Positions 1,846 to 20,920 of a stretch of DNA of 64,000 bases are shown here, one piece after another; position 1 is the stretch's first letter, and every line of letters starts with the position of its first letter. A program made the position numbers and the translations under genes. Under the pieces are notes generated by a model. It saw nothing but the letters and a program-made list of their open reading frames with translations, had not been told where the DNA came from and did no database searches. Source of the stretch: Kutzneria buriramensis (GTDB lineage Bacteria; Actinomycetota; Actinomycetes; Mycobacteriales; Pseudonocardiaceae); contig NZ_QUNO01000001.1 in assembly GCF_003387475.1 (NCBI RefSeq), positions 248,001-312,000 of the forward strand, read 5' to 3'.

Positions 1846-1869
1846 CCATGGCGGACCGGCGGCGAGGAA

Positions 1870-2750: not shown

Positions 2751-2771
2751 TCGATGTCGCTTAGCGTGGAT
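2751..2771 (+). repeat. Left terminal inverted repeat of the insertion sequence
   Basis: The 21-bp repeat is mirrored at 4074-4094 with one mismatch. The inner 17 bp (TGTCGCTTAGCGTGGAT) match perfectly. Confidence 0.85.
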
Positions 2772-4034: not shown

Positions 4035-4073
4035 CTGACGGTCACACCACGTCAGATAATCATGAGAGCTCGT

Positions 4074-4094
4074 ATCCACGCTAAGCGACACCGA
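4074..4094 (-). repeat. Right terminal inverted repeat of the insertion sequence
   Basis: Reverse complement of the left end, with one mismatch, followed directly by the second copy of ACACACGT at 4095-4102. Confidence 0.85.
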
Positions 4095-4419
4095 ACACAC
4101 GTTCGAGCTGCCCTGAGGTGGGGATAACCTGTGGATAACCCGCCCTGCGCGCATTGGTCGACGTGTAATCGCCGAGGGCGGGGTCCCGTCCCGGGATCTC
4201 GAAAGCCAAGCCGCGGGGCCGCTGGCGCGCTGCCGCTGTTCGTCGGCCTGACGCCGGTCGGGGTCGGCTGGTCGTGGTCGCTGGACGCCGGCCCGGTGCG
4301 GGTGGTGGCCTGCCTGAAGGCGGCGGGGTCCAGCGCGTCGGGGGGCTGCGCGCTGGACCGGCCTTGGTCAGGTCATCGTGGTCGGGGCGCTGGTTGTTGG
4401 CCGGCGGCAGGGTCCGCAT
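4095..4419 (-). pseudogene. 5' part of the gene interrupted by the insertion sequence
   Basis: The minus strand reads EIPGRDPALGDYTSTNARR and then GYPQVIPTSGQLERV, stopping abruptly at the insertion point. It is in phase with the 2420-2750 fragment once the element is removed. The first 60 residues are proline- and arginine-rich and may not be coding, because a different frame (4368-4573) becomes protein-like upstream. The original gene was therefore probably already frameshifted before or after the insertion. Confidence 0.5.
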
Positions 4420-4946
4420 CTGCGTCCACGGGCACCGGCGTGCCGAAGGGCCCGGGCGGCCACCTCATGCACCGGGGTGTTGACCTGGCTGAACAGCGCC
4501 TCGTGCTGGCCGCTGCCGGATCGGTTCTTGTCGATCTGGTCCAGCACGGCGGCAAGCCGGCGCTGGTTGTCGTGTAGTCCGGGGAGCGGAGGAGGGGATG
4601 ACGACTCTGCCACGCAGCTGCTTCCGGACACCGGGCACACGCAGGTACCGCTGGCCTGTTGCCCAGTGGCGAACGCGGAGTGCGCGGGAAGCGTAACGAC
4701 GCGTACTGACAGTTCCGTTCCCTCGGCGCGTCAGCCCTGGTCACAGCAGATCGGTGCGGCCGAGGTCGCGGGGCGCTGACCAGGAAGACTCGCCGGGTGC
4801 CGGTGCCGAACAGGTAGGCGCGTTGCTCCTCGAACCGGGCCAGAGTGCGGTAGCCGGCGGTCGGACAGGCCGGCGGTTGCCGAACTACGGCCGCGCGGTG
4901 ATCATGGCGGCCTCGGTCCTTTGAGACGGCCTTGCCCCAGGCATCA
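4420..4946 (-). pseudogene. Decayed coding remnants on the minus strand
   Basis: No intact gene is present, but two pieces look like former protein. About 4450-4573 reads LAAVLDQIDKNRSGSGQHEA then LFSQVNTPVHEVAARAL. About 4760-4870 reads GYRTLARFEEQRAYLFGTGT then RRVFLVSAP. They lie in different frames, separated by stops. They may be parts of the same large gene as the fragments at 2420-2750 and 4095-4419. Family not recognised. Confidence 0.35.
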
Positions 4947-7001
4947 TCAACCGGCTTTAGGCATGGGTAGGGAGCCGCGCATAAGTAACTGGTGAAGCTC
5001 AGGACCGGGGACTGGTCTGGAGAACAACCACCCTTGGTAGGCGTCGGCCCCGATGCCGCGCAGCACGTGGAACTGCGTGGCGGTCTCTACCGCCTCGCCG
5101 ACGCAACTCCGACCCATCGCACGGGCCAGCATCATCACTGCCTGGGCCACCGCGAAGTCCGCGGGATCTTCGCCGACCCCGGACACGAATCGGCGGTCCA
5201 CCTTGATGATCTGCGCAGGTAGATCCTTCAACCGGGCCAGCGACGAGTAACCGGTGCCGAAGTCGTCGACGGCGAACCGGACGCCGCGGTCGACGAGATG
5301 GGCCATCTCCGCGATCGTCAGGGGCGACAGACCGGCCAGCAGGGTCTCGACCAGTTCCAGGACAATCCGGTCCCAGCCGATCCCGGACTCGGCAACAGCG
5401 TCGGCCACCGTCGTCGTGAACCCCGGATCGCCAGGTGCCAGCGCGGACAGGTTCACCGCGACCGCAATTCGACGGCCGGCCGGCTCGGGCCAGCCAACCG
5501 CGGCCCGCAATGCTGTGCGGAGAACCCAACTGTCCAGCTCGAGCAGCAGGTTGCTCCTCGCCGCCACGGGTAGGAACACGTCGGGCGTGAGCAGTCCGTA
5601 CTCGGGGTGCTGCCAGCGGACCAGCGCTTCAGCGGTCAGTATCGTGCCGTTCACGTCGACGACCGGCTGGTAATGCAACGTCAACGCATCTGCTGCGATC
5701 GCGTCGTGCAGCTCGCCCTCCAGCTGCACTTGCCGATCCGCAGTGGCGACGAGCCCGGCGCTGGCGACGACCATCCGACCGTAGCCACGCCGCTTCGCCT
5801 CGTACATCGCCGCGTCCGCGAACCGCAACAGATCCTCGCCGGTCACCAAGGTGTCGGTCGGCGTCACGGCGCCGATGGACGCCGACACGCGGACGAGCTG
5901 CCCCTGAAGCGGCACCGCCTGCTGAAACAGGGGCGCCACCAGGGCGGCGAACTGTTCGACGCCATCCAACGGTCTGACATCCGGGCAGACGACCACGTAC
6001 TCATCGGCGGAGACCCTGGCCGCGACGCTGCCCTCGGGCAGCCCCCTCTCGAGGTTGCGAGCTACGGCGACGAGCAGTTCGTCTCCGGCCTCGTGGCCGA
6101 GGGACTCGTTGATGCGTTTGAAGTTGTCGATGTCGCAGAACAAAACGGCGACGTGGCTTGCGGCGGCAGCATCGCCACTGAGCAATGCCCGAAGTAGTTT
6201 CATGGCACCGCGACGATTGAGGAGGCCGGTGAGCTCGTCACGGGTGGTGGGCTGCACCCAGTCCGCCGTGGCTGAGGCAGAACCGGTCGGGGTGGGTGAC
6301 ACGGCGAATGCCTCGGCGATGTGCGACAAGTCCTGATGCTGCTCATCGAGGTACGCGCCAATGCGGTGCACGACCGCGTCCACCCCGGCCAGGTCGACAC
6401 CGACGCCGACATGGGGAAGGCGGGGCACTGAGGGCTGTGCTGGCGACAGGTCCTCGGCGCTGCTGGTGTCAGGGCCGAGCATGCGGAGCTGGCGCTCGAG
6501 AGTGTTGATCTTGCGATGCAGAACGGCGATCAGCTCCACCGCCAACGTCCGCTCGTCCAGGGCCCGATCCAGTTGATGCTGGGTGCGTTCCTTCGACCGG
6601 TGGGCGTCGGTGAGTTCACGTCGGGTTCGCGCCAGCTCGGCCACGCTCCGGTCGGCTTCGTGCTGGTGGTGATCGCGCTGCCAGGTGAGATGCGCGATCA
6701 TGTCCTGCAAGCGCATCAAGGCGAGCTGCAGCGCAAGGACCACCTGCGTGATGTTCCGTTCGGCGGTCACGCTAGCCAGGAGTTGTTGTTGCATCTGCGT
6801 CAATTGCGTCTGGACGTCGTCGAGCCGACGATAGGCCGTAATGACCTGTTCCTGAGCCTGATGAACCGCATCCGGATCATGTCGGCCGGTCTGAGTGATG
6901 TGGACATCGCCGTGGATCGCCGCCGCCTGCACCACATTGTTGGCCATGCCGCTCGTCGTGTTGCTCGAGGTGCCTGCAGCAGGCGGAGGCTCAGTCGTCA
7001 C
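4947..7001 (-). CDS. GGDEF-EAL cyclic-di-GMP protein with N-terminal amyloid-like motif and coiled coil
   Basis: The protein has 684 residues and a GTG start at 7001. Residues about 15-36 (GMANNVVQAAAIHGDVHIT) resemble the RHIM/PP-like bacterial amyloid signalling motifs known from actinobacterial NLR-type proteins. A long coiled coil with no membrane segment follows (about 45-180). The GGDEF domain (about 255-415) has SADEY at the active loop, so cyclase activity is doubtful. The EAL domain (about 430-675) keeps AEALVRW, VAVNLSA, DDFGTGYSS, IKVDRRF, GEAVET and YQGWLFS, so phosphodiesterase activity looks intact. It is probably a soluble c-di-GMP-degrading enzyme controlled by assembly of its N terminus. 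It stands alone between an insertion sequence and decayed DNA. Confidence 0.85.
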   Translation of the reverse strand: MTTEPPPAAGTSSNTTSGMANNVVQAAAIHGDVHITQTGRHDPDAVHQAQEQVITAYRRLDDVQTQLTQMQQQLLASVTAERNITQVVLALQLALMRLQDMIAHLTWQRDHHQHEADRSVAELARTRRELTDAHRSKERTQHQLDRALDERTLAVELIAVLHRKINTLERQLRMLGPDTSSAEDLSPAQPSVPRLPHVGVGVDLAGVDAVVHRIGAYLDEQHQDLSHIAEAFAVSPTPTGSASATADWVQPTTRDELTGLLNRRGAMKLLRALLSGDAAAASHVAVLFCDIDNFKRINESLGHEAGDELLVAVARNLERGLPEGSVAARVSADEYVVVCPDVRPLDGVEQFAALVAPLFQQAVPLQGQLVRVSASIGAVTPTDTLVTGEDLLRFADAAMYEAKRRGYGRMVVASAGLVATADRQVQLEGELHDAIAADALTLHYQPVVDVNGTILTAEALVRWQHPEYGLLTPDVFLPVAARSNLLLELDSWVLRTALRAAVGWPEPAGRRIAVAVNLSALAPGDPGFTTTVADAVAESGIGWDRIVLELVETLLAGLSPLTIAEMAHLVDRGVRFAVDDFGTGYSSLARLKDLPAQIIKVDRRFVSGVGEDPADFAVAQAVMMLARAMGRSCVGEAVETATQFHVLRGIGADAYQGWLFSRPVPGPELHQLLMRGSLPMPKAG

Positions 7002-7112
7002 CGGCTACCGTCCCACCATCGGCTGTGTCGCTCCAACACACCCAGTGAACGCTACTAGCCCGCACAAGGAGCAGGGGTGGCTCATGGACGCCTCGGACTA
7101 ATTACTTCGTCA

Positions 7113-8680
7113 TGAAAAACTGAGGTGGCGGTCAACTGCCCAGCAGTCGCCCGGCCGTGGTTGGGCCGGATTCACTGGTTCACGCCCTGGCGGTTGCCGC
7201 CAGGGCGGTGAGCTTGACCAGGTTGTGGGCCAGGACGCCGTGCCCGGTCCAGATCCGCACCCCGGCGATGCCATCGATACCGGTGCGGTCCCACCCGTAT
7301 CGATGTTTGAGGTGGCTGATGCGCCCTTCGTAGCCGGTGCGCCACTTGACGAGTTTGCGGAACGACGGCCTGCGTTCGTGGTGTTGTCGGGCGAGTCCTG
7401 TCTTGCTTTTCCGTGGGATGGCAACGGTTTTCACGCCGAGGTCGTTCAGTTGCGTCTCGACGGAAGCTTCCCCGTAGCCCCGATCAGCGGTCACCGCGCG
7501 GGGTGTGTTGCCGGTGCGGCGCTGCACGCGCTGCACCGCGGGCACGAGTTGCGGCGCGTCGGCCGGGTTACCCACCTCGACGGTGTGGTCGAGTACGACA
7601 CCGTCGGCGTTGTCCACGACCTGGGCCTTGTAGCCGAACTCCACAGGCTTGCCCAGGCGTCCCTTGGCGATCGGGCGGGCGTCGGGATCGTGCAGGCTGA
7701 CCAGCCGGGTGGCCGAGTCCGGGGTGTCCCCGGCCAGCCGCAGCCGCGTCTGGGCCACGATCCGTCCGGCCCGCTCGAGGGTGGCGGCCAGTTCGTTGAT
7801 CGCCCGGCGGAGCCGTCCTCGGGCGTGGCCGGTTGCCGTGCGCAGCGCCCGGCGGGCATTGCGCAGCATCGCCGCCGCGTCCCGGGTCGCCCGCGCGGCC
7901 AGGCCGGCCAACTCGCCGGTGATCCGCCGGACGGTGGCCTGGGCTTCCTCGCGGGCCTGGGCGCCTCGCAGCCGTAGCTTCGAGGTGATCGTGCGGACCC
8001 GCCGCCCCGCGGTGCGGGATCGGTCCCGAAACGGGGTCCGGACCGCGCCACCAGCAGTCTTTATCCGTCGGACCAGCCCGCTGATCTTGCTCACCGCACG
8101 GGCCAGCAGTCCGGTGTCAGTGGGGTAGTTCACGTTCGCCGACACCACGGTGGTGTCGGCGCGGACTTTTCCCGTCTTCACCAGCTTCGCCGCGGTCGCC
8201 TTGGCCAGCACCGCCTCGTTCAGAGCCGCCACCGCGGTCTCCCCGCAGCGGGTGGTGATCTTCATCAGGGTCGTGGGGTGTGGCAGCGGGTCGTCGATGT
8301 TCAGCCGGCAGAACCGCCGCCAGGAGATCGAGTCGGACACCTCCGCGCACAGCGACTCATACCCCAACCCGTAGCGGTGCTTGAGGAACATCAACCGCAG
8401 GTAGGTCTCCATCGGCACACTCGGTCGACCCGTCCGGGTGCTGAAGTGCGGCACGAACGGAGCGAAGAACCGCTCGTCATCCAGCCATGCGTCCACCCGC
8501 TCCAGCTCTGCCGGCAGCCGCAAACACACCTCCGGCAGGATCGACTCCCACAACGAAGGCTGCTCGTTCCGTGTCCGTAACATCAGCCAGATCCCTTGCG
8601 GCGCAACGATTTACTTGCATTGTCGCGCCGATGCGGCCTGGTCGGCTCCCGACACGCCGACCAGGCCCATCACTTTTTCA
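7113..8680 (-). mobile_element. Insertion sequence, ISNCY/IS1182-like
   Basis: A single transposase gene is flanked by imperfect inverted repeats: TGAAAAACTGAGGTGG at 7113-7128, and TGAAAAAGTGATGGGC read on the minus strand from 8680 to 8665 (12 of 16 match). I found no obvious target duplication, so the exact ends are provisional. Confidence 0.55.
7180..8583 (-). CDS. ISNCY/IS1182-like DDE transposase
   Basis: The transposase has 467 residues. The N-terminal DNA-binding region contains RTGRPSVPMETYLRLMFLKH, a hallmark of this group. The first catalytic Asp is in VRADTTVVSANVNYPTD. A long arginine-rich helical insertion follows (about 180-270). The second Asp is in AVTADRGYGEA and the Glu in GYEGRISHLKHRYG. 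All three DDE residues are present and the frame is intact, so it may still be active. It lies between the GGDEF-EAL gene and the ABC-ATPase operon. Confidence 0.85.
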   Translation of the reverse strand: MLRTRNEQPSLWESILPEVCLRLPAELERVDAWLDDERFFAPFVPHFSTRTGRPSVPMETYLRLMFLKHRYGLGYESLCAEVSDSISWRRFCRLNIDDPLPHPTTLMKITTRCGETAVAALNEAVLAKATAAKLVKTGKVRADTTVVSANVNYPTDTGLLARAVSKISGLVRRIKTAGGAVRTPFRDRSRTAGRRVRTITSKLRLRGAQAREEAQATVRRITGELAGLAARATRDAAAMLRNARRALRTATGHARGRLRRAINELAATLERAGRIVAQTRLRLAGDTPDSATRLVSLHDPDARPIAKGRLGKPVEFGYKAQVVDNADGVVLDHTVEVGNPADAPQLVPAVQRVQRRTGNTPRAVTADRGYGEASVETQLNDLGVKTVAIPRKSKTGLARQHHERRPSFRKLVKWRTGYEGRISHLKHRYGWDRTGIDGIAGVRIWTGHGVLAHNLVKLTALAATARA

Positions 8681-8969
8681 GGGGGAGGTGTTCCCGCCCG
8701 GGCCGGCCGCCGCGTGGTGGGAAACGTGGTGAGCAGCGCACGCCAGGTGACGGGTCACGATCCGGGATCGCGCGAGCTTGAGGGGCACGAAGCTGGCTGA
8801 GCGCGCCGGTTGCTCTATCAGCGTGCGACTTCGACACCGTGGGCGGGCTGCGAGCCGCGGCGCTGGCGCCGTGGCGGAGGCTGAGCCTGAAGCCATGCGG
8901 CTGATGCAACCAATGCCGTAGGCAACGTGGCCGGCCACCACCGGCCCGACGCCTGAGAACGAGCACGAC

Positions 8970-11087
8970 CTACTTCATGTCCGACGGCTTGGTCCGGCTG
9001 CCGGGAACGGCCACGGTGACGATGTGCCTCGGGACTGGGTCGCCGGGCACGTCGAACACGGTGTGGACGATGAGCTTGCTCAGGTGTGGTGGTGGCCCTG
9101 TGGGGTCGAATGCCTTGTGGCGCAGCGCTACCAGGAATCCGATGCGGATGTCGGTGGCCTGATACGTGGCCGCCTGCTTGAGGTACGCCTGCTTGTCAGT
9201 CAAGGGCTTCTTCGTCGAGTCGACCTTCATCTCGATGCAGATGCTGAATCCGCTGAACCTGAGTCTCAGGTCGATCCGCCCGCCGCCAACGTGCTGGACC
9301 TCGTAGTCCGTGATCGCGCCGTGGCTACCGGACTTCAGGAAGTCGTGGAGATCCCTGTGGATATGGCGCTCGACGGCCGTGGGGTCGAACAAGTACGGGT
9401 ACAGGTCTGATTGGCCGTTGATCCGGGAGCTGGCGAATTGGATGATCAGGCGAAGGACGTCGTTCACGGCGTCCTTCGGCTCGCCGACATAGTCAGGGCT
9501 ACTGTCCAAACAGGACTGGATCGCGGAGTGCACCGTCGCCTCGGCCAGGTTGAGGCTGTGCCTGCCGATCGTGGCGTCGTTGACCGCGCTGGCCAGTTCG
9601 GCGAGGGCTTTGGGCGACATCCCGGCGAGCTCGACTGCCGCGAAGGATCCTGCTGGGATGAGCTGGTCGAGTGGACGCGGCAGCGACGTGATCGCCGTGC
9701 CGCTAACGTCTTTTCCCGGGCCTGCGCCGGCCAGTGCCTGTGACTTCGCCGCGCGAAGGACCGTCTGCGCGACGGTGAGCTTCTCGGTCACCTCGTGTTC
9801 GCGGTCGCCCACAGCGGTTGCGGCTTCCTGCTCCAGGGCGCGGGTGTGGTCCTCGAGGTTGCTCAGCAGGCCAGCGGTCCTGGCGAATCCCGATTCTATG
9901 ACCGGCCGCACGAGCCTGAGCAGGCCGTCGATGTCTTCCTCGTGGGAGACCACCGCGGTGGAGCGTGAACCCAGGTAGATCTGGAGCAGGTCGTCGACTA
10001 CGACTTCGGCTTTGTAGAAACTGTCCCGCTTGAACTCCTCCCGGAGCCTGCCCAGGTCGTCGGCGAGTCGATTCCACGCCAGCAGCGCTGCTCGCTTCGG
10101 GTCTCCGTACCAGTGGTTCAAGCCCATCGACGTCACGTTGATCCGGCGAACCCGTTCAGCTAGGTCGGCCAACGCGTGTGGTTCGAGCCGAGAAGTCGAC
10201 AGGGCTTCCACACCCGGCTTCGGCGAGGGCTCGTCCAGAAGCGCACACAGCACTTCGACCACTGTCAGGAGGATGCTGGCGTCCTCGCGTTCGTAGGTGT
10301 CCCAGGCGACCTGCAAGTACCTTGCGGAGGCTTGGAGGTTGCGCAGCATCAGTGGGAGGTCTGCGGCGCGCAGTGCGCTGACCAGTTCGATCCCGGCCAG
10401 CACCCACGCGGCGTCGGAGGCGACGTCGTCGGGATCGGCGCCCGGACGCGGCCGTCCAACCGGGGCGTCGATCCCAGCTACGAGGCGTACGACGCCGGCG
10501 AGGCTCGCGGCGTGCGGCCAGTGGTCGACAGCGACGCCGATGGCGCGCACGACCGCGGTGCCGAGCGGCTTGGGCAGCGGCGCGTCAAAGCGCTCCAGAA
10601 GAGCCAGCAAAGCGAACGGCGATCCGATCCCACACAGGGCAAGCCGGGTGCGGGCCTCCAGCGCGGCTGCCGTCCGCAGCGCGGCGCGGCTGTCCGGGTC
10701 CGCCAAGTCGAGGTATTGCTGGACAGCGTTCTCCAGGGCCTTGGCCAGACCTGCGCCCACCTGGTTCAGCGCGGGTCCGCTGGTGATCAGGGCTTCCAGG
10801 CTGTCGATGAGGATGGCCGGACTCGTGGTGGAGGTGACCGCGGCCGACACGCGGCGCATGGCTTCCGGGTAGCTGTCGGTCCGGCCACCGGCGTTGGCGG
10901 CCTCCTGGGCGACCAAGTGAACCAGCGGGGGAAGCACCGGGCTGTCGGCGAGGCCTGCGGCGTCCTGGGCCAGTCGCTCCCAGCCGCCGAGGGAGACGAA
11001 GGCACCTTCAGCGGGCGGCTGTCCCGCGCCTGCCGAAAGGAGAGCCTCGAGGTCTCCTTCCAGCTCGGCAGTCGCACGGCTGCCCAT
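8970..11087 (-). CDS. Third component of an ABC-3C-like system: helical protein with C-terminal PD-(D/E)XK nuclease-like domain
   Basis: This is the last gene of a three-gene operon, about 705 residues from the ATG at 11087, which has GAGAGGAG just upstream. A GTG at 11126 that overlaps the upstream stop is an alternative start. Most of the protein is helical and unrecognised. Residues about 590-660 contain GGGRIDLRLRFSGFSICIEM then KVDSTKKPLTDKQ. That is the D...E-x-K pattern of a PD-(D/E)XK nuclease, followed by a YLKQAATYQ helix as in restriction endonuclease-like domains. In ABC-three-component systems the third protein often carries the effector, so this is the likely DNA-cutting arm. 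Inference rests on motif and operon context. Confidence 0.65.
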   Translation of the reverse strand: MGSRATAELEGDLEALLSAGAGQPPAEGAFVSLGGWERLAQDAAGLADSPVLPPLVHLVAQEAANAGGRTDSYPEAMRRVSAAVTSTTSPAILIDSLEALITSGPALNQVGAGLAKALENAVQQYLDLADPDSRAALRTAAALEARTRLALCGIGSPFALLALLERFDAPLPKPLGTAVVRAIGVAVDHWPHAASLAGVVRLVAGIDAPVGRPRPGADPDDVASDAAWVLAGIELVSALRAADLPLMLRNLQASARYLQVAWDTYEREDASILLTVVEVLCALLDEPSPKPGVEALSTSRLEPHALADLAERVRRINVTSMGLNHWYGDPKRAALLAWNRLADDLGRLREEFKRDSFYKAEVVVDDLLQIYLGSRSTAVVSHEEDIDGLLRLVRPVIESGFARTAGLLSNLEDHTRALEQEAATAVGDREHEVTEKLTVAQTVLRAAKSQALAGAGPGKDVSGTAITSLPRPLDQLIPAGSFAAVELAGMSPKALAELASAVNDATIGRHSLNLAEATVHSAIQSCLDSSPDYVGEPKDAVNDVLRLIIQFASSRINGQSDLYPYLFDPTAVERHIHRDLHDFLKSGSHGAITDYEVQHVGGGRIDLRLRFSGFSICIEMKVDSTKKPLTDKQAYLKQAATYQATDIRIGFLVALRHKAFDPTGPPPHLSKLIVHTVFDVPGDPVPRHIVTVAVPGSRTKPSDMK

Positions 11088-11122
11088 GGCGCTCCTCTCG
11101 TTGGCACTCACCGTGCAGCTTC

Positions 11123-13303
11123 TCACCAGACGTAGGAGTTGCCCTCCGCGACAACCCGGTTGGCCTTCGGGAGATGCTCGACGAGCGGCGCAGCGTTGCG
11201 GGTGGCGACGAAGATCTGCATCTTGGCCTCCGCTGCGACGTCCTGCAGGGCCTTGACCATGATGTCGAAGTCTTCCAGCGGCATCTCCTCGGCGGACGGC
11301 GAGTCCAGGACGAGGAAACCCGGGTGACGACCGATCCCCTCGACGTAGCCGTGCCGGATGAGGGCGATGGCGGTCGCGATCTTCACCCGCAGCTTCTCAC
11401 CGTCGGTCAGGCCGGAGTAGCTCTGATCAACGCCGTTCTCCAGGAGCGCCATGTTCGCGGCGCCGTTGAGCGTGAAGCCGCTGAGGTTGTCGGCGCCGAA
11501 GCTCCGGGTCAGGCGTTCGATATCGGCGGAGATCTGGACCAGCATCGGGCCCTGGTCTTTCTTCACCCATTTCTTCAGCACCTGTTCGGCCGCGTCCACG
11601 ACGGCGAGCTCCACTGAGTCCACTGGGTCGACTGCCCTCGGGTTACTCGACTGGGTGAGCGCTGCCAGCGCGCCCTCGGCGCGTGCCAGGTCGAGTTCGA
11701 GCGTACGGCGGTCACTGGCGGCGGCGAGCAGCTCGCCCCCAGCTTCGGCGCGCGCAGCGGCTGCGTCCCGCTGCCTGGTCAACTCCGCGATCTCAGTGGT
11801 CAGCCCCGCCACCGCAGTCTCGGCGGCGGTCACCGCAGCCTGGGCCGCTTCGATCTCGTCCCGGGGCTCTTCTCCGGCGCCGTCGTCCTCACTGTCATCC
11901 CTGGACGTCTCGGCGATCAGGCCGGCCGCGATCTCGTGGGGCACGGACGCGGCCACGATGACGTCGGATTGGAGCGCTTCGAGGTTCAGGTCGCTGGCGC
12001 AGACCGAGCACTCGTGCTTGTCCGGTTCCGCCGCCTGTCGCTCCGGCGTGACCTGCGCGGCACAACGCGGGCACACCGACGGGCGCATGTGGTGGAAGAA
12101 CCTGGCCGCGAGCGCGTCCTCGTACCGCGTGTGCGCGCGGGCCTTCACCGCCTTGAGCTGCTGACGCGTCGTCTCGGCCAGGGACTGCTGCGCGATCAGC
12201 CTCCCCTCGAGCCGATGCACCTCGCGCGAGAGGTCGGAAGCGTGGTTCGCGGCCTCCAGCATCACCCGCATGTCCGGCGTCTCGGTGGGCAGATCTGCGA
12301 TCTTCGTCTGGACGTCTTGGACGGCCTTCGCCGCTGCCTTCCTGCTCGCCTCGATCGCCTCACCCGCCGCCTGGGCCTTGTCCTTCGCGGCGGCCCGCGC
12401 CGTCTCCATACCGCGTCGCGCCGTCATCGCGGCAGCCTGCACCGGTGCCCAGTCCGTGCCGATGAACATCTGCATCATCCGAACGCCGATGGTCTGCTCG
12501 TTGCCGACGATCGGATCGAGCTGATTCGCCCGGACGACGAACGAGCTGGAGTACGCAGGCCACGCGTGCACCCGCGCCGCAGTGTCAGCCCACACGGGGA
12601 TGTTCTCCAACCGCAGCCGAGTCATCATCAGCGAGCCCATGACGCCCTCGAAGTCCGCGCCGTCGAACTGCCCGAGAACCGTGGTTCTGGCGACCGAGGC
12701 GACCTCGGTGACGCTGACGACCCGCCCTGTGGCCACCCCGTTCACCGCGTCGAACTCGACCCGCAGTTGCTCGGCGCCCACCTGCCAGCCAACCTCGACA
12801 TGCTCGATCCAGCCGCGGACGTCGTTCTGGAACTGCGGACACCGACCGGTCAGCGACCACATGAGAACGTTCAGGAGGGTCGACTTGCCGCGCAGGTTCC
12901 GTCCCGAACCGATCCCGTTGACACCGGGCTGCGGTGACCACTCGAACTGGAACGGGACGCGCGCCTTCGTTCCTGCCGGCTGATCGGTCTCCGGCGCTGC
13001 ACCAGCGCTCGCCGACCCCATGAGTGGGGTCCTGTTGTCCTCGGCCAACCGAACCCACACGGGGAGGTCGGCTGCATCGACCAGCGGGCACCCTTGAGCT
13101 TCAGCGCGCCTGGGGTCGAGCCATTTGGTTCCCTTGAAGTGGATTCGGGTCGCTCGCAGCGGCACCGGAACCGCCTTGGTACCCAGCAGCGGAACACCGA
13201 GGCCGCGAAGGATCTCGTCGACCTCCTCGACGGAGAGGACGAGTGGACCGCCCTTCCGCCGCTTGGCCAGGATGCCAACAACCTCGTTGCCCAGAACACT
13301 CAC
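11123..13303 (-). CDS. SMC/Rad50-like ABC ATPase with zinc hook (ABC-3C ATPase)
   Basis: This 726-residue ATPase starts at GTG 13303 with GGGAGGGG upstream and overlaps the previous stop by 4 bp. It has a split ABC head. Walker A is GRNLRGKSTLLN near residue 135. Two coiled-coil arms surround a zinc hook with CPRC and CSVC near residues 415-445. The signature LTDGEKLRVKIATA, Walker B FLVLDSPSAEEM and H-loop-like IFVATRNAAP lie in the last 120 residues. The architecture is Rad50/SMC-like. Together with the two flanking genes it matches ABC-three-component conflict systems, in which the ATPase senses or loads on nucleic acid and licenses an effector. Confidence 0.8.
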   Translation of the reverse strand: MSVLGNEVVGILAKRRKGGPLVLSVEEVDEILRGLGVPLLGTKAVPVPLRATRIHFKGTKWLDPRRAEAQGCPLVDAADLPVWVRLAEDNRTPLMGSASAGAAPETDQPAGTKARVPFQFEWSPQPGVNGIGSGRNLRGKSTLLNVLMWSLTGRCPQFQNDVRGWIEHVEVGWQVGAEQLRVEFDAVNGVATGRVVSVTEVASVARTTVLGQFDGADFEGVMGSLMMTRLRLENIPVWADTAARVHAWPAYSSSFVVRANQLDPIVGNEQTIGVRMMQMFIGTDWAPVQAAAMTARRGMETARAAAKDKAQAAGEAIEASRKAAAKAVQDVQTKIADLPTETPDMRVMLEAANHASDLSREVHRLEGRLIAQQSLAETTRQQLKAVKARAHTRYEDALAARFFHHMRPSVCPRCAAQVTPERQAAEPDKHECSVCASDLNLEALQSDVIVAASVPHEIAAGLIAETSRDDSEDDGAGEEPRDEIEAAQAAVTAAETAVAGLTTEIAELTRQRDAAAARAEAGGELLAAASDRRTLELDLARAEGALAALTQSSNPRAVDPVDSVELAVVDAAEQVLKKWVKKDQGPMLVQISADIERLTRSFGADNLSGFTLNGAANMALLENGVDQSYSGLTDGEKLRVKIATAIALIRHGYVEGIGRHPGFLVLDSPSAEEMPLEDFDIMVKALQDVAAEAKMQIFVATRNAAPLVEHLPKANRVVAEGNSYVW

Positions 13304-14019
13304 GGCCGATTCCCCTCCCCGCCGTCTACAGTCGACACCGATATCGCGGCGTTCAGTGCGTCGAGCCGTTCGCGCACCCGTGGCGCGATCGGAGCGATGT
13401 CCACCCCCAGCTCGGTTCCCGCGTACGTGGCCTGCTGGTACTGCCGGTCCTTCAACGCCTGTCCGCCGTCGTCTCCAGCGACCAACGCGACCAGTTTCAC
13501 CTGCTCCGCGTACCACCCCAGCGTTGGATCTTTCGCTAGCTCAGCGACCGCGACGGCACCGGCCTCGGTCAGGAAGAACTGGTTGCGCTGGCTCTTCTTG
13601 CCCGGCTGTCCGGTGCGGCGCAGGGCGGCGAGCCCGTAGGTTTCTAGGAGGGAGAACGCGTCGTCGAGCGGCTCGTACGCGCCGAAGAACCACCGCGGCA
13701 TCGGGTACCAGCGCAGGTCCGGCTCGGGGTCGTCCAAGAGCGACCGTGCCGTGGCCAGATGGCTCGAGTCGGCCGCGCCCGCCTCCACCATCGACACCAG
13801 CTCGTCGGCGAGGTAGTCCGGGTTCCTCAGCCAGAAGTCCATCGCCTGGAGCCGCAGCTCGCTCCGCACGGCCTTGACCGTTCCCGGGGGATCGCCGTCC
13901 ACCGTCTGCACACCGCACCCACCGAGCAGCGCCAACAACCGAATGGCGTGCTGGGTCCGTGTCGCGGCAGGGCGGCCCTCGGTGTCCGTAGACTCCGCAT
14001 TGGTAGCTATCTCGTCCAA
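13300..14019 (-). CDS. ABC-3C middle-component-like protein
   Basis: The first gene of the operon encodes 239 residues from a TTG start at 14019, preceded by a G-rich ribosome binding site. The central region (KAVRSELRLQAMDFWLRNPD then YLADELVSMVEAG) matches my recollection of the small middle components of ABC-three-component systems, which have winged-helix folds and couple the ATPase to the third protein. The stop overlaps the ATPase start (GTGA), so translation is coupled. A later segment (GKKSQRNQFFLTEAGAVAVA) also looks like a winged-helix wing. Confidence in the subfamily is moderate. Confidence 0.6.
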   Translation of the reverse strand: MDEIATNAESTDTEGRPAATRTQHAIRLLALLGGCGVQTVDGDPPGTVKAVRSELRLQAMDFWLRNPDYLADELVSMVEAGAADSSHLATARSLLDDPEPDLRWYPMPRWFFGAYEPLDDAFSLLETYGLAALRRTGQPGKKSQRNQFFLTEAGAVAVAELAKDPTLGWYAEQVKLVALVAGDDGGQALKDRQYQQATYAGTELGVDIAPIAPRVRERLDALNAAISVSTVDGGEGNRP

Positions 14020-14235
14020 CTTCGCACCCCCAAAGCACCGCTATCCGACCGGCTGACCGCGAACCGGGCAGACTGGCCGTCAGCGTGTTCGCCGGCCCGA
14101 CGTTGGTGCCCTCGCGCAGCCCGCGACACGCCGTCAACCACATCGGGCCGGTACAACCACCCGTTACCATCGGTCACCCGACAGGTGCTACGTACGCCGT
14201 GACCGATCGTCCGAGCCCACTGAGGCGGAACAGTT

Positions 14236-14521
14236 TTGGTGGCAGATTCGGCGCGGGAGTTCTGCCAGCTGCTCAAACTTGCTGGTCGATCGGTCCGGGA
14301 TGAGCTGGCGGCAGCTGGCCGCCCGGGCGCCGAGCACGGGCCCGGACAAGCTGAACCTGTCGCAGGTCAGCTCGATCCTGGACCTCGAGCGCAGCGTGTT
14401 GCCGCGCAAGGTCGCGCAGGTGCGGGTGCTCGCGCGGGCGTGCGGGCTGGACGAGGAGCTGACCGCGCGGTTGGTGGCGGTGTGGGCGAGGCTGAATGCC
14501 CGCAGGACCGCGGGAAGATGA
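14236..14521 (+). pseudogene. XRE-type helix-turn-helix regulator with a single-base frameshift
   Basis: Reading from GTG 14236 gives VADSAREFCQLLKL. Reading one frame over from about 14279 gives LVDRSGMSWRQLAARA and continues to RLNARRTAGR. Joined, they form the typical N-terminal region of actinobacterial XRE-like proteins (D-S-x-x-E-F...L...SG-x-S-x-R-x-L). The break lies in CTTGCTGG near 14275, consistent with one extra base. A truncated protein could still start at TTG 14279 or ATG 14300. It overlaps the next gene by 4 bp (ATGA), so the pair was an operon. Divergent from the ABC-3C operon, it may once have regulated it. Confidence 0.55.
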
Positions 14522-15093
14522 CGCCGGCCGTGCCTGGGCAGGCGGCTGCGGCGGACTCGGCGGACCCTGTGGTGTCGTTGCCGATGGCGCGGTGGCTGGA
14601 GCAGTTCACGGCCGCGATCGAGACGGTACCGGCGAGCACGGCGGCCGAGGCGGTGACCGGGGACGGCGACGGTGCCGCGCCCGTAGTGCACACGGTCGGG
14701 CCGGTCGCGGCCGGTTCCGGCGAGCAGTCGCGCACTGGGGCGCTGGCCGCCCGGTACGCGCAGGCCCTCGCGGCGCAGAGTTGCGATCTGGCGCAGGCGG
14801 TCGCGGCACAGGACCGTGATGTGGTGGGCGAGATCGCGGCGGCGGTGGTGGTGAGGCAGACGATGCTGACTGGTCTCAGCGACGTCCCGGAGATGGTGAT
14901 CGCGAGGGCGGTGGTCGCGGCCGCGGCGGTGGTGATCTACGCGGTGCGGGCACTAAGCGCCGCGACGCGGCGTAGATCGCGGGTGACGTCAACGGGGCTG
15001 TCCTCCTCGTCAGGGACGGCCCCGTTGACGTGTTCGGGTGCGCGGTCGTCGCATGCCGGGCGTCGGTGTGCACAGGCACCTTGCGTCAGATAG
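14518..15093 (+). CDS. Hypothetical helical protein downstream of the XRE-like gene
   Basis: ATG 14518 overlaps the stop of the preceding regulator. The first 150 residues are alanine-rich helix with moderate hydrophobicity near VVVRQTMLTGLSDVPEMVIA and AVVAAAAVVIYAV. The last 40 residues (after about 14970) look non-coding and contain a strong hairpin. The natural end of the gene may therefore have been before 14987, with the reading frame now running on. No family recognised. It is possibly the partner of a regulator pair common in actinomycetes. Confidence 0.4.
   Translation: MTPAVPGQAAAADSADPVVSLPMARWLEQFTAAIETVPASTAAEAVTGDGDGAAPVVHTVGPVAAGSGEQSRTGALAARYAQALAAQSCDLAQAVAAQDRDVVGEIAAAVVVRQTMLTGLSDVPEMVIARAVVAAAAVVIYAVRALSAATRRRSRVTSTGLSSSSGTAPLTCSGARSSHAGRRCAQAPCVR
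14987..15030 (+). terminator. Strong hairpin, terminator-like
   Basis: The 12-bp arms CGTCAACGGGGC (14987-14998) and GCCCCGTTGACG (15019-15030) pair perfectly. They lie between convergent genes and inside the 3' end of the preceding open frame. There is no T-tract, as is common in high-GC actinomycetes. Confidence 0.5.
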
Positions 15094-15128
15094 CCGACGG
15101 AACCCTCGGATAAGGCCTCGGTGTGCGA

Positions 15129-16082
15129 TCAGTCAGGCAGCTGATCCAGACGCATGCTCATCGCCTCCTGCTCCGCCTGCTCACGGCTGCGCCGATAGCT
15201 GCACACGAAACAGATTCCCGCGCGGATGCCCATCCCAAAGGAGTCGCTGCCGCCGTCGGGGATCAGCGCGCAGTTGCCGCACAGCGGGCAGTCCTGAAGC
15301 CCGTCGTCCTCGAACGGATCAGGGGCGAGCCAGTCCGCTGCGTCGACCCGGCGCGCGATCTCGTCCTCGGTGAGCAACCGGAGATAGTCGTTCGCGATGT
15401 CCACGCGCAGGTCGTCAGCGTCGATGTCGTCGCGCTCCGTCGCGTCGATCCGCTCGTCATACAGCCCATCGAGACCAGGGTGGGCGTCCAGTGCGAACAG
15501 CGCGTCAAGGTGGCGCTGCTCGAGTTCGTCGGCGGCGTCGTTGCCGTGCCGGATTCCGTTCGCGATGTTGATCCCCTCCGGTAGCGCCGCCACATCGACA
15601 CGCACGATGTCGTGGGATGGCGGGAACGGCCCGAACGCGGAGAGCGGCTCCCCGTCCGAGCGGTGCTTTTGGTGCTGTTCCCTGGGGACGTCCAGGAAGC
15701 GAGTGACCGTGAGGGTCACCGCAGTGGCGTTCGCGCCGGTGGCGTCCCACACAGCGTCGATGTTGTCCACCCGCACCTGCGGCACCGTCAGCTCAGTCTC
15801 GGCCGGCGTCACCGCGTGGGAGCGGGCCTTGCTCGCGAGGGTGTCCAGAAGCTGCCGGCTGAACTTCACCTTCAGCTTGCCGTCCTTGCCGGTCTTCGAC
15901 CCGAACTCCTCGCCGCGCCAGCTCGATCCGACGATGACGGCCAGGCCGTTGCTCAGCGCGGCGTCGAACAACGACTCCGCGCCGGCCATGTCCGGGTCAC
16001 GCTGCAATGCGAACGCGCAGCGGGCGTAGACCTGGGCGCGGTTGCGGAACAGTGCCGCGTCGGGGGACTCGGGAGGCAACAT
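15129..16082 (-). CDS. Hypothetical protein with C-terminal zinc ribbon
   Basis: About 317 residues from ATG 16082; the frame stays open further upstream, so the start is uncertain. The N-terminal half is mixed alpha/beta (FRNRAQVYARCAFALQRDPD then MAGAESLFDAALSNGLAVIVG). An acidic middle follows (YDERIDATERDDIDADDL). The C terminus has CPLCGNC and CFVCSYRRS, a four-cysteine ribbon that could bind zinc. It follows another multi-zinc-ribbon gene on the same strand 97 bp upstream, so the two are probably co-transcribed. Function not recognised. Zinc ribbons suggest nucleic acid binding. Confidence 0.55.
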   Translation of the reverse strand: MLPPESPDAALFRNRAQVYARCAFALQRDPDMAGAESLFDAALSNGLAVIVGSSWRGEEFGSKTGKDGKLKVKFSRQLLDTLASKARSHAVTPAETELTVPQVRVDNIDAVWDATGANATAVTLTVTRFLDVPREQHQKHRSDGEPLSAFGPFPPSHDIVRVDVAALPEGINIANGIRHGNDAADELEQRHLDALFALDAHPGLDGLYDERIDATERDDIDADDLRVDIANDYLRLLTEDEIARRVDAADWLAPDPFEDDGLQDCPLCGNCALIPDGGSDSFGMGIRAGICFVCSYRRSREQAEQEAMSMRLDQLPD

Positions 16083-16179
16083 CCCGCCAGTATCGGCCTC
16101 TGCCGCGGAGGCGTTGACGGCGCCGGTTGGGGGCACGGCGTCTGGGACGGTCGCGACCACACGATGACAGGGGGCCGGG

Positions 16180-17055
16180 TCAGTATCGGCGGCCGTGGCT
16201 GGGAAGCCCGCCCGAGACCGTCCGCACACTCTCCGAGGCCGAGTAGGTCAGGGGCCGCACTCGTAGCGTGGGCTCCTTCACCGGCTTCGACGCCGTCCTG
16301 GCGGATTGTCCCGCTGCGGCGACGCAGGATTGACACGAGCAGGGCGGCAGCGCGGCTTCCGACTCGCTCATCGGTTCGGTGATCTGCTCGTTCGACAGCA
16401 GACACACCTCGACCTTGCCGGGGATCTGGTGTGAGTACAGCGTTCCCCGTACCCGGTGCAGCCGGGTCCGGGCGCCGCACAATGGGCACTCGTAGCGCTG
16501 GACGTAGGGATTCCGGCTGCGCTCGGGATCATGCCGCACGGGACCGTCCTGGCCGTCCGGCGGGGGTGGCGGGGCAGGCGCGAGCTGCAGCCCGGCCAGC
16601 TGCAGGGCCTGCGACCGGCGCTGCTGCCGGACCTCGCGTCCGATGCGCTTCCGACACGACAGGCACTTCTGGTTGCTCAACTTGCTGCGGGGGAACTGAT
16701 TTCCGCAGCTCGAGCAGGCCTGCGACCTGCATCCCTTGTGGATGGTGACGCGCTTGCCGAGGGGCTTGTCGCACACCGTGCACAGCCGCGGCTCGGTCGG
16801 TTCCGACGCCGGCTTCGCCACCGCGTCGCTGTCGTCAGACTGCCCCGGCGCGGTCTGCGGGATGTCGAGCTGCTGGCGAAGCTGTGCGCACGCCTGCTCC
16901 GGATCGGTCTGCCCGGTCGCGGCGCACAGTTGGGCCCGAAGGCGCTGGTGGGTGATCAACTGCTCGACGTTGAGGCCGGAGCTGCGCCGGCGCTGGGCCA
17001 GCGCGGTGAAGGTACGCACGGCGTCGCGAAGCTCCGCGGGGTCGAGGTCGGTCAC
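16180..17055 (-). CDS. Hypothetical multi-zinc-ribbon protein
   Basis: 291 residues from GTG 17055, with AGGGAGG 7 nt upstream. After a helical N terminus there are several cysteine clusters: CTVCDKPLGKR, CRSQACSSCGNQFPRS with QKCLSCRKR, CPLCGARTRLHRVRG and a late CSCQSC. The spacing suggests at least two zinc ribbons. A proline-rich linker (near residue 170) separates them. Such proteins usually bind nucleic acid, but I do not recognise the family. It is the first gene of a probable two-gene unit with 15129-16082. Confidence 0.5.
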   Translation of the reverse strand: MTDLDPAELRDAVRTFTALAQRRRSSGLNVEQLITHQRLRAQLCAATGQTDPEQACAQLRQQLDIPQTAPGQSDDSDAVAKPASEPTEPRLCTVCDKPLGKRVTIHKGCRSQACSSCGNQFPRSKLSNQKCLSCRKRIGREVRQQRRSQALQLAGLQLAPAPPPPPDGQDGPVRHDPERSRNPYVQRYECPLCGARTRLHRVRGTLYSHQIPGKVEVCLLSNEQITEPMSESEAALPPCSCQSCVAAAGQSARTASKPVKEPTLRVRPLTYSASESVRTVSGGLPSHGRRY

Positions 17056-17270
17056 GGACACCTCCCTGGCAGCCAATCCACTGTGCCACGACTACACGCG
17101 ACGCCGGGGCAGGTCGTGGAGACGGCCGGCGCTGCGGGGGCGCGCCGGCCGTATGCGTGACCATCGCACCCGGCACCTCGCGGCGTTACGCCGTCGGCTG
17201 TGGCAGCACGAGACCAGCATGCGGCTGGTGTCGCCGTCCAACGCGGTCAGCGTCGTGTCGTTCGTGGTGA

Positions 17271-17432
17271 TCACTCGTCCATACCGTTTCCGACTACTCC
17301 GGCCTCGCGGTCATCCAGACGCTTGCGACCTGGATGGTCAGTGCGTCGCGGGACGACCGGCAGGAGCGGCTCGATCCGCGCCCACAACTCGTCGGACACG
17401 ATCCACGGAGGCTGCTGCCCTTCCTCACACAC
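17271..17432 (-). pseudogene. IS5-family transposase, N-terminal fragment
   Basis: From GTG 17432 the minus strand reads WIVSDELWARIEPLLPVVPR then RTDHPGRKRLDDRE, the standard opening of IS5-group transposases. Similarity stops near 17304 and an unrelated tail ends at a stop at 17271. Only about 45 of roughly 270 residues remain. The element is dead. Confidence 0.65.
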
Positions 17433-17526
17433 CGATCAACAACCTCCTTGATCAACTTATTCCAATATCCATTCTGTTAGGAGCTCTAACTAAGGCCCCA
17501 CCCTCGGTCCTTGCATATTTCGCCTC

Positions 17527-17881
17527 CTACTCAGGCAGCTCCCCGAGTTTCCAAATCCATTTCAACGGCAGGAGGTTCTGGGCGTGTTGTCGGCCAAGCG
17601 TGATCGCCTCGTCGATGAACTCTGGCTCGAACAGCACGAAACCCATGAGGTCTGGGCGGGTGCGAGGGCTGGAGTCGAGCAGGAAGTAGATTCATGCGGC
17701 GAATGCTGCCGGTCAGCTGGTATTCGCTAGCTCCCGCGCCCTGTTCGAGGGCGTCTTCCTCTTCGACGCCTACGTCGGCCCGCTGCTGGCCGCGCTCAGC
17801 CCAGCGGTCTGGGCGTTCAGCGCTCCACGCGGCACCGGCACCGGCATCTACACCCTGGGCGATCCGCTCCCAGGTACTCAT
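17527..17881 (-). pseudogene. Unrecognised gene with a frameshift
   Basis: From ATG 17881 the frame gives MSTWERIAQGVDAGAG and continues to YQLTGSIRRM near 17695. One base later a second frame continues with IYFLLDSSPRTRPDLMGFVL, FEPEFIDEAITLGRQHAQNL and KWIWKLGELPE, ending at a TAG at 17527. The two halves clearly belong together and differ by one base at the AAT after the ATG codon of RRM. The product would be about 115 residues. Function not recognised. Confidence 0.5.
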
Positions 17882-17886
17882 GGTGA

Positions 17887-18324
17887 CGCCGCCGAACTCC
17901 TCCACATGCTTCCGCAGCGGAGAAGCTTGCACTCCGACCCGGCTCCAAGACCGTCGAACTTCGGCGCACCAGGCTCTCAGCCCCGGACGGCACGCGCCTC
18001 GTCCTTTACGCCAGCTCCCCCGTGATGGCCGTCGTGGGCACTTCGGTCCTCATTGGTCGCGATACCGACACGCCCACCCGCATCTGGCGGCGCTACCGCA
18101 GGAATCTCGGACTTCACCGCCACGAGTTTGACGAGTACCTCACCGGTACCGAACTAGCGACAGCGGTGCGGGTCGGCGCCCCGCACCGGTTGACCGATCC
18201 GTGGCCGCTAGCGGTGTTGCGAGACACCGCGAAGTTTCAGCCGGCGCAAAGCTTCCGGTTCGTATCCGATGACGACCCCGCTCCGCTGCGCGACTTGGCC
18301 GACCTCGGCAGCCCACAGCGCTGA
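17887..18324 (+). pseudogene. ASCH-domain-like protein lacking a start codon
   Basis: The frame reads AEKLALRPGSKTVELRR, then LSAPDGTRLVLYASSPVMAV and IWRRYRRNLGLHRHEF, then FDEYLTGTELATAV and KFQPAQSFRFV. This is the layout of small ASCH-fold RNA-binding-like proteins (SKTVELRR and LYASSP are characteristic). The frame begins after a stop at 17884 and has no usable start codon before the conserved region, so the first residues seem lost. An internal ATG at 18022 would give only the second half. It lies divergently beside another broken gene. Confidence 0.5.
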
Positions 18325-18776
18325 CCTGCCCCCACGCATCATCGCGCTGGCCGGACCGCAGAGGTTTCGGCCAGGGCTTCGCTGCCAACGTACAGGCGCC
18401 GGCACTCCACGCCTGTATCTTCGCACCTGCCATGGCCGACCGCGACCACGGAGTGATCGTCGACCAACCAGGACATCTTGTCCACGATCACCCGCCTTGG
18501 CGTCCGACGTAGAGGTGCTAGCAGATCCGCTAGCTGATCTGCTAGCCGTTCAGCTTGCTAGCTTGCTGCGCGTCCAGATTGCTAGCACACGCCACCACGC
18601 CGGGCCGGTCAGCCCGCCGGGGCGCGTGGCGGGCCATCGGCTACACCTGACGTGGGCCGCGGTCGAGCTGCGCCGGACGGCGGGGCAGCCGTGGGGCGAT
18701 GCCCCGGCGAGCATCGGTGACGTCGAGGGGTACTGACCAGACCGGTCGGCTGAGGCGCGGGCTACTAGTTGCTGCA
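18325..18776. other. Gene-poor stretch containing a GCTAGC repeat array
   Basis: An open plus-strand frame (18269-18736) passes through and ends with LHLTWAAVELRRTAGQPWGD, which might be a real C terminus. Most of it is unconvincing. The notable content is the repeat array at 18517-18586. Confidence 0.35.
18517..18586. repeat. Five GCTAGC palindromes in 70 bp
   Basis: GCTAGC occurs at 18517, 18529, 18541, 18557 and 18581, spaced 12, 12, 16 and 24 bp. The first three lie in a larger palindrome, GCAGATC at 18521-18527 and GATCTGC at 18536-18542. Regular spacing near the helical repeat suggests a multi-site operator or an iteron-like replication or partition site. Confidence 0.6.
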
Positions 18777-19598
18777 CTACCCGAACAATGGCGTGCTGCG
18801 CTGATCGAACAGGGTCCATCCGTCGTGGATCATCAACGCGGCGGCTTGCGTCATTACGAGGACCGCAGAGTCTGGCGCGCTCAGCCGCAGGTTCAGGACG
18901 TTCTCCGCTGTCCTGCTGATCTCTGTGTGGCGCAGCAACCCCAAGGCCGCCCACGTTCGGGCGTGGGTGATCCCGCTGCACAACTTCCACACGAGCAGCG
19001 TTGCGTCGCGCTGGTGGCTGGCAGCTTCAGCGGCAGCCGTGCCGACGATCGTCGTGAAGGCCACCTTGCCAGCGGCTACCTGCGCGACCCGCGCCGGCGT
19101 GAATCCCCGGGCACGAGCGACATCCTCAAGTTGAGTCCGGCGCTCCTGCCGCGTCATGCGCTGCGGCGTGCCTGCCAGCTCGGCGGCGTTCATCCCGTCG
19201 CACACATCCGCCCATTGCAGTCTCAGCCGCCGAAGGATGCGCTCATCACGACTGCTGGGCGCCAGCAACCAGACTGCGATCGACGCGTTCTCCAGCGCGG
19301 CTCGCAGTAGCGTGAACGGGGCGCGTGCGTGCACGACGTTCGCGTCGATGATCAATTTGCGTAGCGCGTGCAGATGGTCGACCGCGCTGTTGAGAACACC
19401 GAGGACGGCGTGGGAGATCTGAAACGGATCGGTGTCTTGATCGTCGCGGGCCAGCGGGCTTCCACGCAGTGGGCGGGTCGGCTCGTCGAGAGTGCGTGTC
19501 ATCCACGTGTCGACCTTGTCGAAGATGCGCGTCAGGTCCTCAAGAACCTGGCCGTCGAAGGCGACCGTGGCACCGAGACGCCCCTCAGCTTCGATCAT
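18777..19598 (-). CDS. Hypothetical protein
   Basis: 273 residues from ATG 19598. Mostly alpha-helical, with a hydrophobic stretch ALENASIAVWLLAPSSRDER that recurs in uncharacterised actinobacterial proteins, and a later RDATLLVWKLCSGITHARTW. No transmembrane segment or signal peptide is obvious and no catalytic motif is visible. It is a single gene within the island, with no close neighbour on the same strand. Codon usage and composition are protein-like throughout, so it is likely real, but the function is unknown. Confidence 0.6.
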   Translation of the reverse strand: MIEAEGRLGATVAFDGQVLEDLTRIFDKVDTWMTRTLDEPTRPLRGSPLARDDQDTDPFQISHAVLGVLNSAVDHLHALRKLIIDANVVHARAPFTLLRAALENASIAVWLLAPSSRDERILRRLRLQWADVCDGMNAAELAGTPQRMTRQERRTQLEDVARARGFTPARVAQVAAGKVAFTTIVGTAAAEAASHQRDATLLVWKLCSGITHARTWAALGLLRHTEISRTAENVLNLRLSAPDSAVLVMTQAAALMIHDGWTLFDQRSTPLFG

Positions 19599-19757
19599 GA
19601 TCTCCCGCCCCCGGCGTGGTGGCGTCCAGATCGACGCCGGTCCGCTGATAAGTCTTCCAGCCGCAGGTTGGTGTTACTCGTCCAGTAGGACGAACCGGCG
19701 GCTGGGCACTCGGCATCGAGGCTTCGCATCCAGTGGCACTCGCTACCGTGCGCACCC

Positions 19758-20399
19758 ATGAACACCTTCCTGGATCTCGTGAAGCTCGTCGTCGGCGCAC
19801 TGCTCGGCTACTGGCTCGGCCAACACGGCGCCGACCGTCAGTTCCGGCGCCAGCAGACCCGCCAACGCATCGAAGATGCCAAGAAGGCGTACGTGGACTG
19901 CCTCAAGGCCGGGCGGCGGTTGGTCAGCGAGTTTTACCTCCCGAGAAACCGGCCGCCGTCGGATCTGCTGGCGGACCTGCAGACGGACGACGTCCGAAAC
20001 AGGGTCACTGGCCTCCAGGAACAACTGGCTGACGCCGAGATCGCGTTGGGTGTCCACGGTGCGACCACAACAATCGGTCAGCTCCAAGAAGTCAGGTTCG
20101 CGGCATCGTCCCTGCTCTCCTTAGCTGGCATCTTTCAGACAGCAGCGCTTGCCCCAGGCAGCCTCGACGAGTCGTACACGGCAGCGTGGTTCGCCATGGC
20201 TGGAACCATGGATCAAGCCGAGCGGGAGTGGGAACAGTGGAAGGCCGACCAAGAAGCGGTCGCAGGCCGTTGGGCCTGGTTGCGGCAGCTCCGAAGTTTG
20301 GACGTGTGGGCTCGGGTTCGGCGGTGGCTGGGGTGGCAGCGGTTCCGTCGCCAACAGCCGAACAACCAGACCCTGCCGCCGGGTACCGACGTCTCGTAA
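19758..20399 (+). CDS. Hypothetical membrane-anchored protein
   Basis: 213 residues from ATG 19758. The N terminus (MNTFLDLVKLVVGALLGYWL) is a single membrane-spanning or amphipathic segment. A charged helical region follows (RRQQTRQRIEDAKKAYVDCL) and then helical bundles. The tail is basic and tryptophan-rich (WARVRRWLGWQRFRRQQ). The topology suggests a membrane tether with a cytoplasmic helical domain. The family is not recognised, and the gene is followed by a second small unknown gene on the same strand. Confidence 0.6.
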   Translation: MNTFLDLVKLVVGALLGYWLGQHGADRQFRRQQTRQRIEDAKKAYVDCLKAGRRLVSEFYLPRNRPPSDLLADLQTDDVRNRVTGLQEQLADAEIALGVHGATTTIGQLQEVRFAASSLLSLAGIFQTAALAPGSLDESYTAAWFAMAGTMDQAEREWEQWKADQEAVAGRWAWLRQLRSLDVWARVRRWLGWQRFRRQQPNNQTLPPGTDVS

Positions 20400-20509
20400 A
20401 CGGCGCCCGAACAACGATCGGCGACACCGCTTCCATCACCTGGATGGCGCTGCGACGCCACCGAGACGGGCGCTGCGTCCGACACGCCACCGCTGCCACG
20501 ATCGCGATC

Positions 20510-20914: not shown

Positions 20915-20920
20915 CGTAGC

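Follow-up and report, generated by a model that had tools for sequence, protein, structure and literature searches.

A Lamassu (ABC-three-component) operon of Kutzneria buriramensis with a predicted C-terminal effector nuclease, and relatives without ATPase heads

Lamassu types I and II, the ABC-three-component (ABC-3C) systems and DdmABC have been united in one superfamily (PMC10586767; this and the other papers cited here are drawn on in excerpt). According to the same review, the effector LmuA usually carries its effector domain at the N-terminus and a docking domain at the C-terminus, the middle component LmuC is reportedly absent from some systems, and the Walker B glutamate of the ATPase LmuB is generally replaced by glutamine, with low or no hydrolysis suggested for the Vibrio system. 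LmuB and LmuC are described as recognizing aberrant DNA, after which LmuA is released, oligomerizes and cuts DNA (PMC12409362, PMC12904381); the liberated effector forms a homo-tetramer and its nuclease is activated (PMC12409362). The type II system DdmABC of Vibrio cholerae consists of an SMC-like ATPase with a coiled coil, a small middle protein and a nuclease effector (PMC12409362). We analysed a 64,000-nucleotide stretch of Kutzneria buriramensis (contig NZ_QUNO01000001.1, positions 248,001 to 312,000; hereafter the window), in which an operon with these same three parts, lmuC, lmuB and lmuA, occupies window positions 8970-14019.

The three genes are intact, overlapping open reading frames (ORFs) on the minus strand. 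LmuC, the middle component (239 residues, 13300..14019), starts with TTG preceded by GGGGGTG, and both LmuB, a Rad50/SMC-like ABC ATPase (726 residues, 11123..13303), and the effector LmuA (718 residues, 8970..11126) start with GTG. For lmuB the mechanical ORF start lies at 13516, and the GTG at 13303 is the likelier start. The lmuC stop and lmuB start overlap in the sequence GTGA (13303-13300), as do the lmuB stop and lmuA start (11126-11123). A sequence-only reading of the window had described three translationally coupled genes on one strand between the same outer limits; the strand and limits were confirmed, and the coupling fits because of the stop/start overlaps at both junctions.

All three proteins match one set of Lamassu models in PADLOC, each over nearly its full length. 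LmuC matches PDLC03872 (E 3.5e-76) and aligns with 10 relatives, LmuB covers profile positions 6-657 of 657 in PDLC03864 (E 3.3e-213), and residues 22-718 of LmuA cover positions 4-653 of 655 in PDLC03853 (E 1.2e-167). With profile E-values from 1e-76 to 1e-213, the signal is far beyond chance. The only signal that Pfam and NCBIfam gave for these proteins was in LmuB, a weak one of AAA_23 and Rad50/SMC-like kind. PADLOC listed no Jet (Wadjet JetABCD) models for the three proteins up to an E-value of 1; Jet genes elsewhere in the genome were not sought. Because all three proteins match Lamassu models and the review unites ABC-3C with Lamassu, we conclude that the operon is a true Lamassu (ABC-3C) member, ordinary in kind and with a less usual effector layout. 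It shows no difference in kind from the PADLOC set, has the gene order of its relatives, and includes the small middle component. The sequence-only reading had spoken of an operon resembling an ABC-3C conflict system, which was right given that the review places ABC-3C within the Lamassu superfamily (PMC10586767), and membership is now firmer than resemblance. It had also named the lack of a profile match for the middle component as evidence that would count against it, and the match to PDLC03872 answers that point.

LmuB was compared in an alignment of 11 sequences, in which all of the elements expected of a Rad50/SMC-like ATPase with a zinc hook, as read from the sequence earlier, were found on the minus strand. 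The Walker A motif GRNLRGKST (residues 134-142, 12878..12904) has N136, G139 and K140 invariant in 11 of 11 sequences, and the zinc hook CPRC...CSVC (residues 411-435, 11999..12073) consists of two CxxC pairs whose cysteines, C411, C414, C432 and C435, are likewise invariant (11/11). An ABC-signature-like LTDGEKLR (residues 632-639, 11387..11410) was recognized from the alignment and the sequence, and the Walker B region GFLVLDSPSAEE (11285..11320) has the core FLVLDSPSAEE at residues 663-673. Together with the profile match, these motifs identify LmuB as an SMC/Rad50-like ATPase with split heads and a coiled coil. Beyond the Lamassu model the similarity is weaker: Pfam AAA_23 matched at E 7.6e-4, under the family cut-off, and the best matches of the LmuB profile to PDB sequences were to Rad50 (E 5e-4). 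The position after the Walker B aspartate, where the catalytic glutamate is expected, is serine in 10 of the 11 sequences and alanine in the other, and a glutamate pair 5-6 residues past the aspartate is invariant. The glutamine reported for Lamassu at this site (PMC10586767), usual but not defining, is thus replaced here by serine, and there is likewise no glutamate. Because of this serine, LmuB may be an ATP-dependent switch that works slowly or only once, and not a fast motor.

The effector departs from the usual description in the order of its parts. Residues 13-470 of LmuA (9717..11090, minus strand) are predicted to form an all-helical HEAT/ARM-like solenoid, from an AlphaFold2 model and generic HEAT/ARM matches; the mean predicted local distance difference test score (pLDDT) of this model is 72.9, and the solenoid is confident mainly up to about residue 290. 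Residues 535-718 (8973..9524, minus strand) are predicted to be a PD-(D/E)XK nuclease domain from conserved residues, the model and fold matches. The superfamily is defined by a D-(E/D)-x-K motif within an alpha-beta-beta-beta-alpha-beta core, and the predicted model of the C-terminal domain (pLDDT 81.5, predicted template-modelling score 0.82) agrees with it: the fold resembles that of restriction endonucleases, and the catalytic residues occupy their proper positions. The signature comprises E586, D619, E632-x-K634 and Q651xxxY655, and E586, E609, D619, E632, K634, Q651 and Y655 are invariant in 11 of 11 aligned sequences, among which LmuA has 22-83% identity to its 10 relatives. The PD-(D/E)XK-like motif noticed earlier at the end of the third protein is therefore invariant across the aligned relatives, and a C-terminal domain without a nuclease fold, which would have spoken against a DNA-cutting role, is not what the model predicts. 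LmuA would accordingly be expected to cut DNA, as judged from the model. The match to PDLC03853 and the predicted domain together give the operon an LmuA effector with an enzymatic domain, and one statement of the sequence-only reading falls here: the roughly 590 N-terminal residues said to match nothing lie inside PDLC03853.

The predicted DNA-cutting domain is thus at the opposite end of the effector from the usual Lamassu description, with the solenoid first and the nuclease last. Lamassu membership does not depend on this layout, because the PADLOC LmuA model spans the nuclease-last arrangement end to end. Whereas DdmABC resembles the operon in its parts, it differs from the window LmuA, in which the nuclease is C-terminal and follows a long helical solenoid. 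In the LmuAB-DNA complex of PDB entry 9ux7, the chain has 304 residues and the matching segment spans residues 12-155, compared with residues 535-718 of 718 in the window LmuA.

We found the closest relative in another genus of the same family (genome G498, locus L027), where window positions 8969-14173 are matched at 82% DNA identity. No second blastn match at E 1e-5 was found between this 19.4-kb locus and window positions 1-40000. Because the match is confined to 8969-14173, the transmitted unit appears to be the operon with about 150 bases upstream of lmuC, a possible regulatory region. The ratios of nonsynonymous to synonymous substitution (dN/dS) relative to this locus are 0.13 for LmuC, 0.21 for LmuB and 0.17 for LmuA, and all three genes are under purifying selection. 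Beyond lmuA in L027, on the opposite strand, lies a KAP P-loop NTPase-TIR fusion (6756-8456, plus; Pfam E 3e-38 and 2e-18), apparently a separate defence gene.

Of the 7 genus genomes, 1 had a match to the LmuA model; samples of the family and the phylum yielded 13 of 150 and 5 of 396, and the window's own genome is among the carriers in all three figures. The 13 family matches include a C-terminal-only match and a split one, and among the 5 of the phylum are a split match and a borderline one. Sixteen loci were fetched around LmuA matches, and 10 of them contain complete LmuC, LmuB and LmuA genes in that order; the others comprise two with a headless LmuB (described below), two with split genes and two weak matches without LmuABC by blastp. 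Among 72,556 plasmid records, tblastn relatives were found for LmuA in 26 (7 with at least 80% coverage) and for LmuB in 34 (11 with at least 80% coverage), mostly in Streptomyces, with others in Rhodococcus and some proteobacteria; no LmuB relatives were found by tblastn among 50,697 phage records. Named relatives come from Micromonospora, Prauserella, Amycolatopsis, Actinacidiphila and Streptomyces. Two genomes of the host's family, G504 and G483, encode proteins identical to those in two Prauserella records, which puts the host in the family of Prauserella. The distribution of the operon is patchy, accessory and partly plasmid-borne. Homologues restricted to housekeeping contexts had been named as a finding that would argue against a conflict system; the operon is instead accessory and in places carried by plasmids, with the exception of the headless relatives in one other genus, whose surroundings, near a LytR-type gene, look like core genome.

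Several further matches were noted. An IMG/VR viral contig (L047) carries a complete LmuC-LmuB-LmuA set at 4126-8690 with the same three PADLOC models, followed by an ORF at 8793-9701 that is transposase-like by eye. In L033 (8545-10723), L034 (8603-10512) and L045 (1883-3946) the LmuA coding sequence is broken into at least two frames, and in L033 LmuB is split as well; these are probably broken copies or sequence errors. Among 14 control genomes, that of the archaeon Methanosarcina acetivorans had a match to the LmuA model, and the LmuA family may therefore cross domains.

We consider it very probable that the window carries a functional Lamassu (LmuCBA, ABC-3C) immune operon in which LmuB and LmuC sense aberrant DNA and release the LmuA nuclease. 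By analogy with the described systems, LmuB dimers joined through the zinc hook, together with LmuC, would sense aberrant phage or plasmid DNA in the form of ends, hairpins or stalled replication. LmuB and LmuC would keep LmuA silent before activation, upon which LmuA would be released and then assemble into oligomers. Its PD-(D/E)XK domain would cut DNA indiscriminately, so that the invaded cell is killed or crippled. We further suggest that the solenoid, which makes up most of LmuA, takes the docking and oligomerization role held elsewhere by the C-terminal domain, and that the nuclease would be placed at the free C-terminal end.

A refinement compatible with this reading is that the operon is directed mainly at plasmids or conjugative elements entering the cell, and less at phages, which we regard as possible though on the unlikely side. 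DdmABC acts against both plasmids and phages (PMC12409362), and the contrast between 34 plasmid records and no phage records with LmuB relatives is expected if plasmids exclude competitors by this means. However, a complete LmuCBA set also lies on the viral contig L047, and protection against phages has been described many times in Lamassu systems (PMC10586767, PMC12409362). It is also conceivable that the operon is a Lamassu remnant whose function has been lost in this strain, as the transposase gene adjoining it and the split or partial LmuA copies in other genomes might suggest, but the open frames, the retention of all motifs and dN/dS values of 0.13-0.21 across the three genes make this very improbable. 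Least probable of all, with hardly any weight, is a chromosomal complex of Rad50/SbcC type serving normal repair, with DNA ends tethered by the ATPase for trimming by the nuclease: LmuB is Rad50-like in its AAA_23 signal and its best PDB matches, and the operon shares ABC heads, a coiled coil, a zinc hook and a partner nuclease with Rad50/Mre11, but the Lamassu models are by far the best matches, LmuA is unmatched in 6 of 7 genus and 137 of 150 family-sample genomes, relatives occur on plasmids, a small middle protein is present, and the nuclease is PD-(D/E)XK-like, unlike Mre11 with its phosphoesterase fold.

The immune operon had been placed inside a mobile island by the sequence-only reading, and this claim stands in part. 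An ISNCY-type transposase gene (NCBIfam NF033593, E 2.8e-139) lies at 7180-8583, beyond the 3' end of lmuA, and the flanks are largely unmatched in the genus; the ends of the ISNCY-type element were looked for and not found, and no island ends were found in the flanks searched. These flanks, 1-7050 and 15000-24500, were compared with six other genomes of the genus, leaving out 7050-15000. In the 7-kb flank the sole long match was a 1.1-kb part of an EAL/GGDEF gene (73-74%), and in the 9.5-kb flank only one 2.2-kb piece had a long match, in one of the six genomes. That block (15118-17300, 88% identity, with two unassigned minus-strand genes at 15129-16229 and 16180-17076) had no further match between window positions 1-40000 and the other genome's 19.5-kb stretch, and is perhaps a small mobile element. 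No defence neighbours were recognized with confidence among the 10 proteins examined in the window. The right half of the window (34893-57037) contains very long ORFs of up to 2197 residues.

To follow the headless forms of LmuB, we searched 22 genomes of one genus of the host's family, and 7 had LmuA matches. In five species (G489, G462, G546, G548 and G552), LmuC is followed by an LmuB of 185-189 residues and then by LmuA; the short genes lie at L023 10486-11055 (minus), L029 10535-11092 (minus), L053 6969-7535 (minus), L054 7016-7585 (minus) and L055 6961-7527 (plus). These proteins contain little beyond the zinc-hook coil and have no ATPase heads; the short LmuB of G489, the only one tested, matched positions 311-442 of 657 in the PADLOC profile, corresponding to the hook coil. 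All four hook cysteines, the nine nuclease residues of the adjoining LmuA and the GTGA at the lmuB-lmuA junction are kept in all five. The head deletion is probably ancestral, because few gaps are needed to align the five proteins through the point of deletion.

Pairwise Nei-Gojobori dN/dS values for the 10 non-independent pairs from these five species were 0.25-0.53 for the short LmuB, 0.19-0.49 for LmuA (last 600 codons) and 0.06-0.24 for LmuC (last 210 codons). In the five pairs that were bootstrapped, the true frame of the short LmuB had upper bounds of 0.51-0.79, and as a control three alternative frames (two plus, one minus) gave 0.84 to 3.0. An intact LmuB pair had a dN/dS of 0.11 (0.08 in the hook region), and since 0.25-0.53 exceeds 0.11, constraint on the short LmuB appears relaxed. 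Other LmuB-model matches were absent from four of the five headless genomes, and G548 has one second LmuB-like gene.

All five headless operons are near one LytR-type gene in a core-looking context, with about 4.5 kb separating lmuC from the LytR gene in G548. The site appears to be polymorphic between species, because in a sixth species (G425, L075) the LytR gene and its neighbours are present without LmuCBA. G560 has a 458-residue LmuB (L056 7103-8479, minus) beside LmuC, with no C-terminal head and a damaged Walker A, and its LmuA has all nuclease residues; no LytR match was present within the 14.9 kb fetched, and this is apparently a second case of head loss, at another locus. The seventh LmuA carrier, G549, has an LmuA fragment only. 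No title or abstract describing a headless LmuB surfaced in full-text literature searches, which did not cover the main structural Lamassu papers. The sober reading of the headless operons is a slowly decaying system under relaxed constraint. The boldest is that the ATPase is dispensable in this LmuA clade and that one lineage of the family keeps a working LmuC and LmuA with a hook-coil derivative of LmuB free of ATP-binding heads, a proposal we hold tentatively, as somewhat less likely than its opposite.

The finding is settled as a Lamassu operon, and the previously unplaced stretch of LmuA is explained. It belongs to a clade in which the effector order is reversed relative to the described Lamassu layout, with a long helical solenoid followed by the nuclease, and this layout permits a test of whether the release and oligomerization of LmuA, reported for a Cap4 effector, are general. 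The headless relatives offer a natural experiment on the role of the ATPase and are a more surprising lead than the operon itself. If the bolder reading of them is true, the hook coil and LmuC would suffice to hold and trigger the solenoid-nuclease, the ATPase would be a sensor module that can be removed, and the headless form would either sense something else or have become a fixed, domesticated chromosomal module.
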